Below, piece after piece: positions 49,965 through 56,252 of a DNA stretch of 59,018 nucleotides. Source of the DNA: a bacterium. Its GTDB lineage: Bacteria > Bacteroidota > Rhodothermia > Balneolales > M1805. Within the stretch, counting starts at the first letter, position 1. Each line of letters opens with the position of its first letter. The position numbers and the translations under genes were made by a program. The stretch is taken from contig SBGQ01000073.1 in assembly GCA_006226965.1 (NCBI GenBank), positions 1-59,018 on the forward strand, given 5' to 3'. Below the pieces are notes generated by a model, which did no database searches, had not been told where the DNA came from, and was given only the letters and a program-made list of their open reading frames with translations.

Positions 49965-51017
49965 TTAGTTACCAGTTGCTTTTGTTGAATCGACTTTAAA
50001 AATCCCGTTCATTAAATTTCCCTTATTGTACGATTCCCACCATTGTGGAGGCTGACCATAAAGGTAATTAAACGTTGTTTCGTTGTAACGATTCATCATT
50101 AATCGCTTAATTTCATCTTGATCATTTCTACCGGCCACAACGAAATCAGACTCTGAGTAAAATTGATATGGATAATGAAACATTGTTATTAAGTCAAAGA
50201 ATGGAATAATATTACCTTCACCGCTAAACTGAACCCCTGTTTCAACTAAAAAGTTATAGGTGTTTTGAGCAGTTAAATCAACAAATATTCCAAACCCGGC
50301 TCTAAACTGATTAAAATAACCATCAAGAATCGCATAATCTTGTTCTGGCTCCATTATTGGCAAACTATTAAAGTGAGCAGAGCCAATTAATAAGCTTAAC
50401 GGTTCAATTTTAAAACCCGTTTCATCAACACTTAATATCATTTCTAGTTGAAATAATGTCAGCAGTTGTATAATGTCTTCTTTTTGTTTTATTGTAGAAC
50501 GTGTTACCGTTCTTTCTTGTAATACATCTGGTTTAATTTTATCTAAGATGTAAACAGCTTTCGTATTCCTTTGATCACTTGCGTCAATTGCTTTTTGATA
50601 CCCTAAGAATAGTTCGTCTAATAAAACATTATATGAAGTAATTTTTGTGCCTTTAATAAAAATCTCTGGCCTTAACGGGTCTTCTTTTACTAAGTATACA
50701 TCAAGTCTATTTCTTTTTACTGCTTGAATGATTGAGTCTTTTAAGGCCTCCCAAAACTTACTGGCAACCATTTCAAATTGAATGGCATTTCTGTCAATTT
50801 TAATTGAGTCGGTTTTCTTTTCTGATAGTTTATAGAGTGATGTTTCGTTGAATGGATCCATTCGAGTAATCAAACCTTGTACTCGTAAGGTTTTTCTCCA
50901 CATAACCCCATCTTGATCAGGACGTTCAATTTGTGCAAATGCGCTTATGCTAATTACTAGCATGAGCGCATTCAAAAGAAATAGTCTTTTCAACAAAATC
51001 AAAATGTTATCTTGCAT
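49965..51017 (-). CDS. gldN: T9SS protein GldN
   Basis: 350 aa. Signal peptide (LLKRLFLLNALMLVISISAFAQ). GldN pattern: VMWRKTLRVQGLITRMDPFN, then EKKTDSIKIDRNAIQFEMVA-type strand region, and near the end FNYLYGQPPQWWESYNKGNL. With GldK it forms the periplasmic ring attached to the outer membrane. The ATG at 51017 overlaps the gldM stop by 11 bp, indicating coupling. Last gene of the gldK-gldL-gldM-gldN operon. Confidence 0.85.
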   Translation of the reverse strand: MQDNILILLKRLFLLNALMLVISISAFAQIERPDQDGVMWRKTLRVQGLITRMDPFNETSLYKLSEKKTDSIKIDRNAIQFEMVASKFWEALKDSIIQAVKRNRLDVYLVKEDPLRPEIFIKGTKITSYNVLLDELFLGYQKAIDASDQRNTKAVYILDKIKPDVLQERTVTRSTIKQKEDIIQLLTLFQLEMILSVDETGFKIEPLSLLIGSAHFNSLPIMEPEQDYAILDGYFNQFRAGFGIFVDLTAQNTYNFLVETGVQFSGEGNIIPFFDLITMFHYPYQFYSESDFVVAGRNDQDEIKRLMMNRYNETTFNYLYGQPPQWWESYNKGNLMNGIFKVDSTKATGN

Positions 51018-52206
51018 TGTAAACAAAACTTGATTTAAACGTATTTACATCAACTGGAATAGCCTTGTTTTGGAAATTTATACGGTTGATTTTATCAATA
51101 CGAATTTGGATTTGAGCTGCAATCATATTTCTTCCCATTGCATCTAGAGCTGAAAAAATGTAGATATCTTCATTTTTGGCTCTACCTTTTGTATTGAAAA
51201 ACTCTTTCAATGTTTGGGAATCTAATGTTGTTTGCTCTGGTGCTAATCCTCTTTTACCAATTTCAATAGTTACTTCATCTAAACGATATCTTGCATCTTT
51301 TGGGAAATCTTTCACAAAAGATTCATCTGGTCGAATTACTAATTCAAAGTATTCTTGATAGCCTAATAAATCTGAAGAACTTAGAAATTGTGTATTGTTT
51401 TCTAATCTAATACCAGCTACAGGAGATGGTGTTGGTTTAATTCTAAAACCTTTTTTGTCAATTTCTCTTACCTGTCCATCTGGTGTTCTTGCACTAACGG
51501 TTATTACTGTTGTATCACCCTTTGGTGACCATGTAATTGTATTACCATTTACATTTAATCCGGAAGATCTATCTGAAAGAACCAACTGCGTCGGATCGTA
51601 TCCAATTGCATTGAAGCGTAGAGAATTTTCACACTCAGCAATTAATGAAGGAACCGAATTTGACTGTACCTCAACAAAAGGTTTAAAAACAGTAAATGAC
51701 TCTTCTATATCTTTTTCAAAACCTTTTCCACCAATTGTCTTCGCACTTACCTTGGCCTTGAACGAAAATGTTTTTGTCATTTCTGTTCCCATTTGAGCAC
51801 GTAAAACTTCTGTATCTAAAAAGAATTTTGCCTCTAACGTGTCGTAATAAATACCTTTTACCGAGTTAGATTCATCGATAAGCACATGTGGTTTGAACAT
51901 CATTTTTGCATTATGATCTTCTTCTGCTTTTTCGCCACCAGCATGTTCACCTTCTTTTATAGCTTCTAACGCCGCTTTTTGTTCTTCAGAAGGCTTAAGT
52001 TCATATAAAATATTTGCTTCAAATCTATCACCTAGAGGTACCGTCTTATTTTTTGCGACAGCATAAGCCTCTAAATTATCCGATTTAATTACCAACGCAT
52101 CTGGATTAATGTCAAAAGTTGACATTGCGTAACCTAAAATTGGTAAATATAGAGCCGTCATAATATTAAGACGCATTCCTACGGCTCCACCGCCACCACC
52201 TGCCAT
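51007..52206 (-). CDS. gldM: T9SS motor stator protein GldM, shortened N-terminal domain
   Basis: 399 aa. Position between gldL and gldN and motifs identify it: MAGGGGGAVGMRLNIMTALY has a TM helix near 12-30, then NKTVPLGDRFEANILYE (the family's plGdxYEA strand after the helical domain), and later GMNVNG-type immunoglobulin-like domains (SFTVFKPFVEVQSNSVPSLI; NSLRFNAIGYDPTQLVLSDR). Usual GldM/PorM is about 515 aa, with a helical bundle of roughly 190 residues between the TM and this strand; here only about 25 residues separate them. GldL-GldM is the proton-driven T9SS motor. The shortening is discussed as a finding. Confidence 0.82.
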   Translation of the reverse strand: MAGGGGGAVGMRLNIMTALYLPILGYAMSTFDINPDALVIKSDNLEAYAVAKNKTVPLGDRFEANILYELKPSEEQKAALEAIKEGEHAGGEKAEEDHNAKMMFKPHVLIDESNSVKGIYYDTLEAKFFLDTEVLRAQMGTEMTKTFSFKAKVSAKTIGGKGFEKDIEESFTVFKPFVEVQSNSVPSLIAECENSLRFNAIGYDPTQLVLSDRSSGLNVNGNTITWSPKGDTTVITVSARTPDGQVREIDKKGFRIKPTPSPVAGIRLENNTQFLSSSDLLGYQEYFELVIRPDESFVKDFPKDARYRLDEVTIEIGKRGLAPEQTTLDSQTLKEFFNTKGRAKNEDIYIFSALDAMGRNMIAAQIQIRIDKINRINFQNKAIPVDVNTFKSSFVYNAR

Positions 52207-52247: not shown

Positions 52248-52967
52248 TTAATTCGTAACCGAATTAAAGTTTTTGAAACGAGAAGCCAACTTCTTCATTT
52301 CTTCTTCAAATGTTTTTAGTTCATTATTTGCACTAGCCAGTCGTTCTGAAACTGAGGATGCATTATCAGACAAACCAGCCGCATTCAATTTCTCTAATGC
52401 TCCAAAAGTATCATTCATTGATTTAATTTTTCCACTTAAATCTGACAATGAAGAAGCAACGTCTAAAATTTTTGAATTAACTGTATTTGTTTCGCTTAAC
52501 AAGTTTCTTGTTTTTTCAACATCAGAAACTAACAGTTTTGAAAGCTCACTCATTTTGTCATCAAGTTGTGATGCTACTTTCTCTTCAATTAAATCTTTTA
52601 ATGAATCAGGAAGTTGCATATTAACAACAATTCCACCATGCTCATGAGCAGTTTCTTCTTCGCCTTCAGCTTGATCTTGTTCATCAGGATAAACTTCAAT
52701 AAAAGCATCTCCTTTCATAAAACCCATGATTATAAATACAATTGCCTCACCCAAGAACCCGATTGGCATGAATATATCATATAAAGCCACACCTGTTTCT
52801 GGGCTTACCATTCCCCAGAAAGGTTTCTTCCAAATTTTTAATAACACTCCAAATACTGCCGCTGCACCAAACAAACCAACAAAAAATGAGTCTAGTTTGA
52901 ATTTGCGGTATGTAAAATAAATCGGAAGATTCTTTGGACGGTATTTGCTTTCTAAGCTTGAACTCAT
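52248..52967 (-). CDS. gldL: T9SS motor protein GldL
   Basis: 239 aa inner-membrane protein. Two TM segments: FFVGLFGAAAVFGVLLKIW (about 28-46) and DIFMPIGFLGEAIVFIIMGF (about 64-83), the second with the conserved Glu74 thought to carry protons. The charged region between them and the long coiled-coil C-terminus (about 115-239) are typical. Forms the rotary motor with GldM. Start ATG at 52967, 95 bp after gldK and 41 bp before gldM. Confidence 0.92.
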   Translation of the reverse strand: MSSSLESKYRPKNLPIYFTYRKFKLDSFFVGLFGAAAVFGVLLKIWKKPFWGMVSPETGVALYDIFMPIGFLGEAIVFIIMGFMKGDAFIEVYPDEQDQAEGEEETAHEHGGIVVNMQLPDSLKDLIEEKVASQLDDKMSELSKLLVSDVEKTRNLLSETNTVNSKILDVASSLSDLSGKIKSMNDTFGALEKLNAAGLSDNASSVSERLASANNELKTFEEEMKKLASRFKNFNSVTN

Positions 52968-53062: not shown

Positions 53063-55030
53063 TTAACGAAATCTTTTCGTTACACTCTTAGCACAGCGAA
53101 ATCCTACAAATGGTGTACCTACTGATGCATCCTGAAAGTTCCTAACTCCAACACCAATAAAGAAAGCAGTAGATTGCCAAGACCCACCTCGGTGAATTCT
53201 TCTCGGCTCTCTAATATTACTATATGATGGTGAAACAAAGTTTGCAGTTCCAACATTTTGAAGTACAACATAACTTGGATTCCATGAGTCTAAAACCCAC
53301 TCGCTAATATTACCGGAAACGTTGTGCAAGCCAAAATCATTTGGTTGATAAGAATCAACAGGAGCCATAATTGGATAACCGTCGGCATCATAAACACCTC
53401 GCTCTTGTTTAAAATTGGCTCTATACTTTCCAGTTTTTGTCTGAACATCTAATCCATCCCAAGGATATACTCTACCACTAACACCACTACGTGCTGCATA
53501 CTCCCACTCAGATTCTGTAAGTAGTCTTTTACCTGCCCAAGCAGCAAATAATTTTGCCTGAAACCAACTTACACAAACAACAGGCCGATCATTATAGAAC
53601 GGATCATAAAAGTAAATATTCCAAGGCACTACCTCATCGAGTCCCATTTTTACCCACGCTAAACTATCTGGCATCAAGTCATCAACGGTTGTAATAGCAG
53701 GTGCACTTACATAATCAGATAGATTCTCTAAACCTGCTTTTATGAGCAATTCTGAAATAGTTGGTCTTGTTCCATAACTAGGAACAGGTATAGCTGGGTT
53801 AGTTTGCGGAGGGGCCTGCATTGCACCCATAGCAATCAAAAATGTTCTGTACTGTTCATTAGTAACTTCATACTTATCAACCATAAATGGGTTTATTGTA
53901 ATTCGTTTTCTACCCTGAACTTGAATATTTAATTCATCGACAGATGTTAAACCAATAATATAGCTTCCACCAGGAACTTCCACCATATCCGTCTCTAAGT
54001 CGCTATCGGCTAAACGCACTCTACGCTGAATCGTTTTGGAGGCCAATTCATTAAAACGCACACCCGGGGTATCATAGAGAAGTATCTTATCACTCATAAT
54101 GCGCTGCAATTCTCTAAGATCTTCGTCACTTGTAACTAAGTTTGCGATATTTTGAATTCTTTCGATTTTTGCAACTGTTTTTCTATCAACCTTTACAATT
54201 CTTCTTTCGGTTTCCATTGAACTTGCAGCATCATTATTCAATGGATATTGCAACCCAAAAGTTAACATTGTCATGGCGTCATTTTGTGCGGCCCCATTAT
54301 TCACCGCCTCGGAAGTATTATCAAAATAATCATTTAAGAAATACATGTAACTGTATTCTAAAAAGAATCTGTTATTCCCAGAAAAGGCCGTAGAATATCT
54401 TACACCTGCTTTTCCTGCAAAAATAAAATTTGAATATGCGCTAGCTTCACTAGCATTCCGAGTAAACGTTAAATCAACTAAATAATATGGTTTACTTTCT
54501 CCAACAGCATCCCTAATTGTACCAACACCATCAATAAAACCATCTGTTTCTGGATTATGAAAATAACCCGAGACTACAAAAAATGGTTCAAATGAGGTGC
54601 TTTGAGATATCATGTATTCAAAAGACGCACCTAAGTATGCGCCGAATGCAGTATTATTCACATTTATTGGAACTAGACCTTGGTTATTCCCTAGCCCACC
54701 ATTTGTTGCTATTGCATTTGGATTGGTCAATGCATTGGAATAATGCTTAATTAACTCTATCCCAAACATGTATCGCACTTTATAATCTGCCCCTCTTAAT
54801 GATGCGATTGGCTTATTAAATCCAACCCCTACATGAAAACCATTAACAGGAAAAGGAACACCCTGTAAATCTGCCTCGCCGTTTAAACCTGTATCAAAAT
54901 CTCCATGAAATGAATTGATTCCTAATCGAATCTGTAATTCGGCATCATCCCAATAACCTTGCGCATAAGCGTCAAGGCTTGAAGAAACTACTAAAAATGC
55001 TAACAGGACTACTGTAATTGAATGCTTCAT
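53063..55030 (-). CDS. gldK: GldK-like T9SS protein fused to an N-terminal beta-barrel domain
   Basis: 655 aa from the ATG at 55030, which begins a signal peptide cleaved after AYAQ (residue 24). Residues 25-265 look like an outer-membrane barrel (AELQIRLGINSFHGDF; FNKPIASLRGADYKVRYMFG; RFFLEYSYMYFLNDYF; MLTFGLQYPLNN). A helical linker (280-335) leads to the GldK/FGE-sulfatase domain (about 345-655) with DMVEVPGGSYIIGLTS, INPFMVDKYEVTNEQY, VCVSWFQAKLFAAWAGKRLL, NVSGNISEWVLDSW and HRGGSWQS. GldK/PorK is normally a lipoprotein of about 460-490 aa; here there is no lipobox and the barrel is extra. First core gene of the T9SS operon. Confidence 0.83.
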   Translation of the reverse strand: MKHSITVVLLAFLVVSSSLDAYAQGYWDDAELQIRLGINSFHGDFDTGLNGEADLQGVPFPVNGFHVGVGFNKPIASLRGADYKVRYMFGIELIKHYSNALTNPNAIATNGGLGNNQGLVPINVNNTAFGAYLGASFEYMISQSTSFEPFFVVSGYFHNPETDGFIDGVGTIRDAVGESKPYYLVDLTFTRNASEASAYSNFIFAGKAGVRYSTAFSGNNRFFLEYSYMYFLNDYFDNTSEAVNNGAAQNDAMTMLTFGLQYPLNNDAASSMETERRIVKVDRKTVAKIERIQNIANLVTSDEDLRELQRIMSDKILLYDTPGVRFNELASKTIQRRVRLADSDLETDMVEVPGGSYIIGLTSVDELNIQVQGRKRITINPFMVDKYEVTNEQYRTFLIAMGAMQAPPQTNPAIPVPSYGTRPTISELLIKAGLENLSDYVSAPAITTVDDLMPDSLAWVKMGLDEVVPWNIYFYDPFYNDRPVVCVSWFQAKLFAAWAGKRLLTESEWEYAARSGVSGRVYPWDGLDVQTKTGKYRANFKQERGVYDADGYPIMAPVDSYQPNDFGLHNVSGNISEWVLDSWNPSYVVLQNVGTANFVSPSYSNIREPRRIHRGGSWQSTAFFIGVGVRNFQDASVGTPFVGFRCAKSVTKRFR

Positions 55031-55214: not shown

Positions 55215-56180
55215 CTAATTTCTTTCTAAGAGTACTTTTTCAGGGTCAATTTTATTCTCCGGGTTTAAATCAAATCTAAAGTCAACCTGATAGGTTGGGT
55301 CTGTAAATGTTCTTAAATCTTTCAAATTAATCAGTAAAACAAGTGTCCGATTTTCCCAAATGTCAACATTATTTACTTTCCGGGGAAATTTTAAAGTGAC
55401 TCGCCTTTGGTACCATGGAACAAACTCGGTTATCATTGAATATAGGGGTTGTAGCTGAATTTCTAATGGTTCAACAATAATTTCGTTGGAACTTAATTTT
55501 ATGGAGAACATTTCTTCTGATAATTCTGTTGATGCGATATATAGTGATCGAACATCAACCACAACCTCTATTGTTTTGGAAAAATATTCTTTCTGCCTCT
55601 TCTGGTAGGCATCAATTTCCGATTCACTAATAAAACGTTGTTCTTTTTGTTCGAGAAATTCTGCCTGTAGTAACGGCAATGACCTAACATATACTTCTGT
55701 TCTATAATTTCGGGGACCTATTTGAACAGACATAATTGATTTTTTTTGCAATTGCTTAAATGTTGTTTTGAAATATTTTTCGATTGCTAAATAGTGATTC
55801 GAATTTACCAATGCCGAATCTGTCACTGTTAACGTCATACCATCGGGAAGAGGGACGAATACACGCTTTCTCGCTGATACATTTATAGCTGCCCTTGGGG
55901 CAGCTTTCATCAAACTATCTCTCCTTAATGAATCTTTCCTCGCTCTGTACAACGAATCCTGGATTAATGAATCCAATAGAAAACTTTCATTTGATATAAA
56001 TATCATTGAATCATTTCTAATTGCAGACGAATCAACTTTATTGATTATTAAAGAATCCGGTTTGGGTTCTGTATTTTTAGTGGTATCGTTTGATTGCGCC
56101 AGAAGCTGATTCGTAAGAAAAACCTGAATGCTTATCCCAAAAGTAAAAGTGAGTATTCTTAGGATATGTTTTAAATCCAT
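55215..56180 (-). CDS. secreted protein of unknown function next to T9SS operon
   Basis: 321 aa. Signal peptide (LKHILRILTFTFGISIQVFL...LLAQ). The early mature part is Asp/Ser/Arg-rich with a repeating SLIQDSLYRARKDSLRRDSL pattern (about 70-90), often found in T9SS/gliding-associated proteins. The rest is a beta-rich domain (RKRVFVPLPDGMTLTVTDSA; TIEVVVDVRSLYIASTELSE; YQRRVTLKFPRKVNNVDIWE; LVLLINLKDLRTF). No family recognised. Same strand as gldK, 184 bp upstream of it, and divergent from an ECF sigma factor. It may be an unassigned T9SS component; that is inference from position only. Confidence 0.65.
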   Translation of the reverse strand: MDLKHILRILTFTFGISIQVFLTNQLLAQSNDTTKNTEPKPDSLIINKVDSSAIRNDSMIFISNESFLLDSLIQDSLYRARKDSLRRDSLMKAAPRAAINVSARKRVFVPLPDGMTLTVTDSALVNSNHYLAIEKYFKTTFKQLQKKSIMSVQIGPRNYRTEVYVRSLPLLQAEFLEQKEQRFISESEIDAYQKRQKEYFSKTIEVVVDVRSLYIASTELSEEMFSIKLSSNEIIVEPLEIQLQPLYSMITEFVPWYQRRVTLKFPRKVNNVDIWENRTLVLLINLKDLRTFTDPTYQVDFRFDLNPENKIDPEKVLLERN

Positions 56181-56252
56181 CAATTTGATATCAATCAGCT
56201 AGTTAGTATCTTCTAATTTCATAAGCGCTCTAAAAAAGCTACCAAAAATTAC

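Follow-up and report, generated by a model that had tools for sequence, protein, structure and literature searches.

A GldK/PorK-type protein with a predicted outer-membrane barrel and no lipoprotein signal is conserved across Rhodothermia

Results

Organization of the fused gldK locus

This study examined a 59,018-nucleotide stretch of DNA from a Balneolales genome (Bacteroidota, Rhodothermia; contig SBGQ01000073.1), referred to here as the window; G, C, L, and f numbers are our own handles for genomes, contigs, loci, and families. Reading of the sequence revealed a single unbroken ORF that starts at an ATG codon and encodes the fused GldK protein; a TTG located 18 codons upstream of this ATG is the mechanical start of the frame. 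The gene is the first of a gldK-L-M-(N) operon on one strand (Table 1). The protein encoded at the gldN position matched no family and no PDB entry, and profile searches detected no similarity to GldN or PorN; operon position therefore remains the sole basis of its name.

The fused gldK and an upstream sigma-factor gene flank a gene (55215-56183, reverse strand) for a secreted protein of 322 aa that belongs to no known family; an apparent homologue occupies the same place in L052. This protein was considered as GldN and was rejected because it is not GldN-like.

Table 1. Features of the fused gldK gene and its operon partners in the window
Feature	Position	Strand	Details and basis
Fused gldK: signal peptide, predicted eight-stranded outer-membrane barrel, linker, and FGE/GldK domain	53063..55030	-	655 aa; Pfam, TIGR, PDB, AlphaFold2, Foldseek
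Type I signal peptide, residues 1-24 (MKHSITVVLLAFLVVSSSLDAYAQ), without lipobox	54959..55030	-	Sequence reading
Predicted eight-stranded beta-barrel domain, residues 25-265	54236..54958	-	AlphaFold2, Foldseek, strand alternation
Linker, partly helical, residues 266-345	53996..54235	-	Homologue alignment, AlphaFold2
FGE/GldK (PorK) domain, residues 346-648	53087..53995	-	PF03781, TIGR03525, PDB
Lys535 codon, aligned with PorK Cys356 / GldK Cys343 (PorG/SprF-reactive); no cysteine	53426..53428	-	Alignment
gldL (motor)	52248..52967	-	TIGR03513 E=1.9e-5; adjoins fused gldK in all relatives examined
gldM (motor)	51007..52206	-	TIGR03517 E=2.8e-14
Putative gldN	49965..51026	-	Operon position only; also fourth gene of the operon in relatives examined

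Domain assignment of the fused protein

An earlier note on this DNA had described the protein as a C-terminal GldK domain fused to a barrel-like region and devoid of a lipoprotein signal. Both ends of that description held. The signal peptide is read as cleaved between AYAQ and GYW, with no lipobox cysteine, and Q24 is invariant across all aligned homologues. The C-terminal part matched the FGE-sulfatase family PF03781 (residues 346-648, E=7e-48). The best curated-family match was the GldK model TIGR03525 (E=7.5e-57), with a score of 193.5 bits that stays below the equivalog cut-off of 350 bits, and the top PDB match was to PorK chains (E about 2e-39). Searched alone, residues 25-265 matched no Pfam family.

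Evidence for an outer-membrane barrel

We modeled the window protein with AlphaFold2 from an alignment of seven homologues. The model showed exactly eight strands (residues 31-41, 64-77, 83-97, 125-140, 145-162, 202-217, 220-231, and 252-263) followed by helices; the pLDDT was 77-91 for most strand blocks and poor over the loops, the linker, and much of the FGE half, the alignments used being shallow. Foldseek matched the N-terminal half to the OmpA, OmpX, Ail, and NspA barrels (target TM 0.53-0.63) and the C-terminal half to PorK; for two modeled members, the N-terminal matches also included OprF or designed transmembrane barrels. A separately modeled Rhodothermales homologue from Longimonas halophila (L133) likewise had exactly eight strands, within residues 28-169. 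The hydrophobic/polar alternation in the strands of the window barrel was 2.58, compared with 1.23 in shuffled sequences (0 of 2000 as high), and that of L133 also exceeded all 2000 shuffles. Loops of 22, 27, 39, and 20 aa alternate with turns of 5, 4, and 2 aa in the window model, a predicted pattern that corresponds to the usual outer-membrane topology with both termini in the periplasm.

The missing Pfam match would also fit a soluble beta domain within an extended GldK fold. We regard this as highly improbable: the strands are amphipathic and joined by long loops and short turns, the fold matches are to OmpA, NspA, and OprF, the Pfam matches of the relatives' N-terminal parts are mainly to outer-membrane barrel families (OMP_b-brl was matched weakly by 12 of 13 Rhodothermales barrels), and the domain is absent from Bacteroidia GldK.

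Distribution of the fusion

A search of 129 Balneolales genomes identified seven further full-length fused homologues (30-55% identity) plus one more that is divided between two contigs; all eight adjoin gldL-M-N. In Rhodothermales, GldK is about 490-610 aa long, and a barrel-like domain again stands between a signal peptide and the FGE domain. A scan for gldL in named Rhodothermia genomes returned 23 loci; five in which gldK was cut by contig ends were left out of the count, and the fused form was found in every one of the other 18, where gldK is complete and which include the locus of the isolate Longimonas halophila. By reading, none of these 18 proteins has a lipoprotein signal. The fusion recurs in independently assembled genomes, which excludes an artefact of assembly. 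The barrel-GldK fusion is conserved class-wide across Rhodothermia.

Among 297 genomes from across the phylum, the sampled Bacteroidia GldK proteins had no comparable barrel domain. All but one of the GldK proteins above the cut-off in these genomes had open frames of 341-512 aa. The long GldK of G265 (L124:6126-8162, about 678-685 aa) was considered as a further fusion and rejected; it is a lipoprotein whose FGE domain is interrupted by a large insertion.

Two genomes of the same order, G003 and G066 (family f2, probably Balneolaceae), encode the SprA/Sov translocon and gave no GldK match at E<=1e-40; the genomes of family f2 yielded only ordinary FGE-domain matches. G003 and G066 thus have a T9SS translocon without a recognizable GldK ring protein.

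Barrel-less lipoprotein paralogues

The earlier note had also raised the question of separate porP/sprF and lipoprotein gldK genes in this genome. The former are absent, as detailed below, but contig C101 carries a lone gene for a second GldK-related FGE protein, which has a lipobox (LSSC) and lacks the barrel, and similar barrel-less paralogues occur in several relatives. One of them, the lipoprotein L082 of G182, has a lipobox in place of the barrel and keeps the linker of the fused proteins (YERPYAREDLKNSDPLVVPRSGPPPFEDPGVPPVSG). Because the barrel-less paralogues carry a lipobox and L082 keeps the linker, barrel and lipid look interchangeable, which suggests, in agreement with the earlier note, that the barrel substitutes for the lipid anchor.

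Two further observations concern FGE proteins. In Longimonas halophila (L087:3734-6763), a second, barrel-less FGE gene lies between the fused gldK and gldL, and the operon consequently holds two GldK-type genes. The source genome also encodes a pair of secreted paralogues in which an FGE domain follows repeated PEGA-like units (L010:218-2200 and L011:3337-5268); the two are apparently unrelated to the T9SS.

In a tree of FGE domains, each order's paralogues branch next to its fused proteins or inside their groups, and the starred branches require at least three changes between the fused and barrel-less states. It is possible, though on the doubtful side, that two independent fusions with different barrels occurred in Balneolales and Rhodothermales rather than one ancestral fusion. 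The barrel profiles of the two orders failed to recognize each other (HHalign 10%), and each group adjoins its own barrel-less paralogues in the tree, as two fusions would predict; however, position, operon, and topology are identical in both groups, and the nested, linker-keeping paralogues suggest that a fused ancestor lost its barrel.

The same paralogues bear on the role of the fused protein, which could be a minority subunit, a built-in equivalent of PorG/SprF scattered among many lipoprotein GldK subunits and transmitting force at a few places only. The presence of lipoprotein paralogues in the source genome and several relatives fits such an arrangement, as does the report that GldK is far more abundant than PorG in F. 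johnsoniae (PMC12635249). We nevertheless judge it quite unlikely, because at the thresholds used no GldK other than the fused protein turned up in G093 (a single-contig genome), G192, or G198, and the gldLM operon holds the fused gene, not the paralogue.

Comparison of the fused barrel with PorG and PorP/SprF

By HHalign, the Rhodothermales fused barrel matched PorG at 97%, compared with 3% for unrelated Bacteroidota barrels, and all 14 members scored above 50% when compared with PorG singly. The best match of the PorG profile in G182, G184, and G192 was the fused barrel, with weak E-values (0.015-0.9). The reverse search ranked DUF6089 proteins at the top in about half of those Bacteroidia genomes that gave any match. 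We take DUF6089 to be PorG on the basis of size and a C-terminal Cys-X-Cys. In profile terms, then, the Rhodothermales barrel resembles PorG. The window barrel matched PorG at 81% (score 44) and control barrels at 39%; PorG itself matched unrelated barrels at 76% (score 42), which puts the apparent PorG likeness of the Balneolales barrel at the background level. The window barrel could not be assigned to PorG: the DUF6089/PorG profiles miss the barrel, the barrel profile misses PorG, and the HHalign result lies at background.

The link to PorP drawn in the earlier note was not supported, and a PorP/SprF fusion was rejected because the family is absent. PorP/SprF (PF11751) had no match in the source genome and 11 other Rhodothermia genomes, compared with 6-13 matches in each of three Bacteroidia genomes; the window barrel did not match it either, and has eight strands. 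The translocon protein SprA was present in all Rhodothermia genomes tested. By profile, PorG is a better analogue than PorP, a statement limited to the Rhodothermales barrels.

Loss of the reactive cysteine

Bacteroidia GldK has a lipid anchor, and a disulfide formed by a single cysteine of GldK transmits force to the outer-membrane barrels PorG and SprF. This residue, Cys343 in F. johnsoniae GldK and Cys356 in P. gingivalis PorK, is the disulfide partner of PorG, and in F. johnsoniae it also bonds SprF; its authors called it 'completely invariant' and needed for secretion, and proposed in 2025 that disulfides tie outer-membrane proteins to a moving GldK track (PMC12635249). In our alignment, Lys535 of the window protein pairs with the reactive site of PorK. 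The cysteine was present in 31 of 31 Bacteroidia GldK proteins, in 0 of 26 fused proteins, and in 0 of 8 barrel-less Rhodothermia paralogues within one alignment.

On the barrel side, all 13 Bacteroidia DUF6089 proteins have a cysteine in the C-terminal tail. The barrel and linker of the window GldK contain no cysteine, and hence no PorG-type tail cysteine. The separate PorG-like barrels of Rhodothermia, encoded upstream of gldK in Rhodothermales, lack one as well. Two further PorG-like barrel genes lie between rho and an lptB-like ABC gene, one in the source genome (L191:1135-1833, contig C179) and one in G124 (L192:1312-1968); both products matched PorG at 97% in HHalign and have no tail cysteine. 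The checkable parts of the disulfide coupling are thus gone, exactly where GldK is covalently joined to a predicted barrel.

Given these separate PorG-like barrels, the fused barrel need not be a substitute for PorG. It could serve as an anchor only, replacing the lipid, with force passing to the separate barrels through non-covalent contacts. Consistent with this are the barrels without a tail cysteine upstream of gldK and beside rho and the lack of the reactive cysteine in the lipoprotein paralogues; the Rhodothermales fused barrel, however, is itself the most PorG-like by profile, and we consider a purely anchoring role rather unlikely.

Discussion

We consider it fairly probable that the window protein is the outer-membrane-facing ring or track subunit of the T9SS, a GldK/PorK in integral-membrane form whose ring would be built by the FGE domain. 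From sequence and structural models, we infer membrane insertion, ring formation, and the replacement of both the lipid and the disulfide. In this proposal, the signal peptide would export the protein and the eight-stranded barrel would insert into the outer membrane, its C-terminal end leading through the linker to the periplasmic FGE domain. The FGE domain would build a ring with the GldN-position protein, and GldLM would drive this ring; through its barrel, every ring subunit would be held in the outer membrane, and motor force would travel along the linker to the membrane side. The peptide-bonded barrel most likely replaces the lipid anchor and perhaps also replaces the disulfide tether. 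Several observations speak against this reading: profile searches linked the GldN-position protein to neither GldN nor PorN, the fused protein could be a minor component of a main ring built from the lipoprotein paralogues that these genomes also encode, AlphaFold2 confidence is low over much of the FGE half, and the window barrel is not clearly related to PorG.

The PorKN ring has 31-35 subunits and a diameter of 380-540 A, with the PorK N-termini toward the outer membrane (PMC12635249). We computed a spacing of 36-51 A per subunit for 33 subunits and these diameters. An eight-stranded barrel is about 25-30 A wide, and the spacing therefore leaves room for one such barrel per subunit. We tentatively put forward, as a possibility we would not yet favor, that every ring GldK bears its own barrel, which would give a circle of some 30 outer-membrane barrels moving with the motor-driven ring without a disulfide relay, a lipid, or SprF. 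If so, the barrel circle would solve the mechanical task of coupling force to the outer membrane in another way.

No description of a barrel-GldK fusion was found in the open literature searched, subscription literature being outside the search; one paper mentions that a T9SS may occur in Rhodothermota (PMC11285876). The Rhodothermia members examined break the rule of the 'completely invariant' cysteine (PMC12635249), and their own GldK is a predicted outer-membrane barrel protein. With two natural designs to compare, the fused barrel and the lipid plus cysteine bridge, the need for covalent coupling between the track and the outer membrane becomes testable, and nature provides a test of how the T9SS machine grips the membrane.

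Compared with known systems, the fused protein would be placed with GldK/PorK by its FGE-fold domain, its operon with gldL and gldM, and its best PDB match, but it has a predicted barrel instead of the family's lipid anchor, lacks the cysteine that reacts with PorG/SprF, and scores below the TIGR03525 cut-off. It resembles PorG in having an eight-stranded barrel whose periplasmic C-terminus is covalently joined to GldK, and, for the Rhodothermales barrels, in profile; in contrast to PorG, the barrel is joined by a peptide bond, occurs once per GldK, and has no tail cysteine. PorP/SprF is likewise an outer-membrane barrel coupled to GldK, and porP adjoins porK in Porphyromonas, whereas the window barrel does not match PF11751 and the source genome lacks the family. 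The fold is shared with OmpA-type barrels (OmpA, OprF, and NspA), of which OmpA and OprF also bear a periplasmic domain after the barrel; in the fused GldK, however, this domain would be the ring-forming FGE domain rather than a peptidoglycan-binding one.
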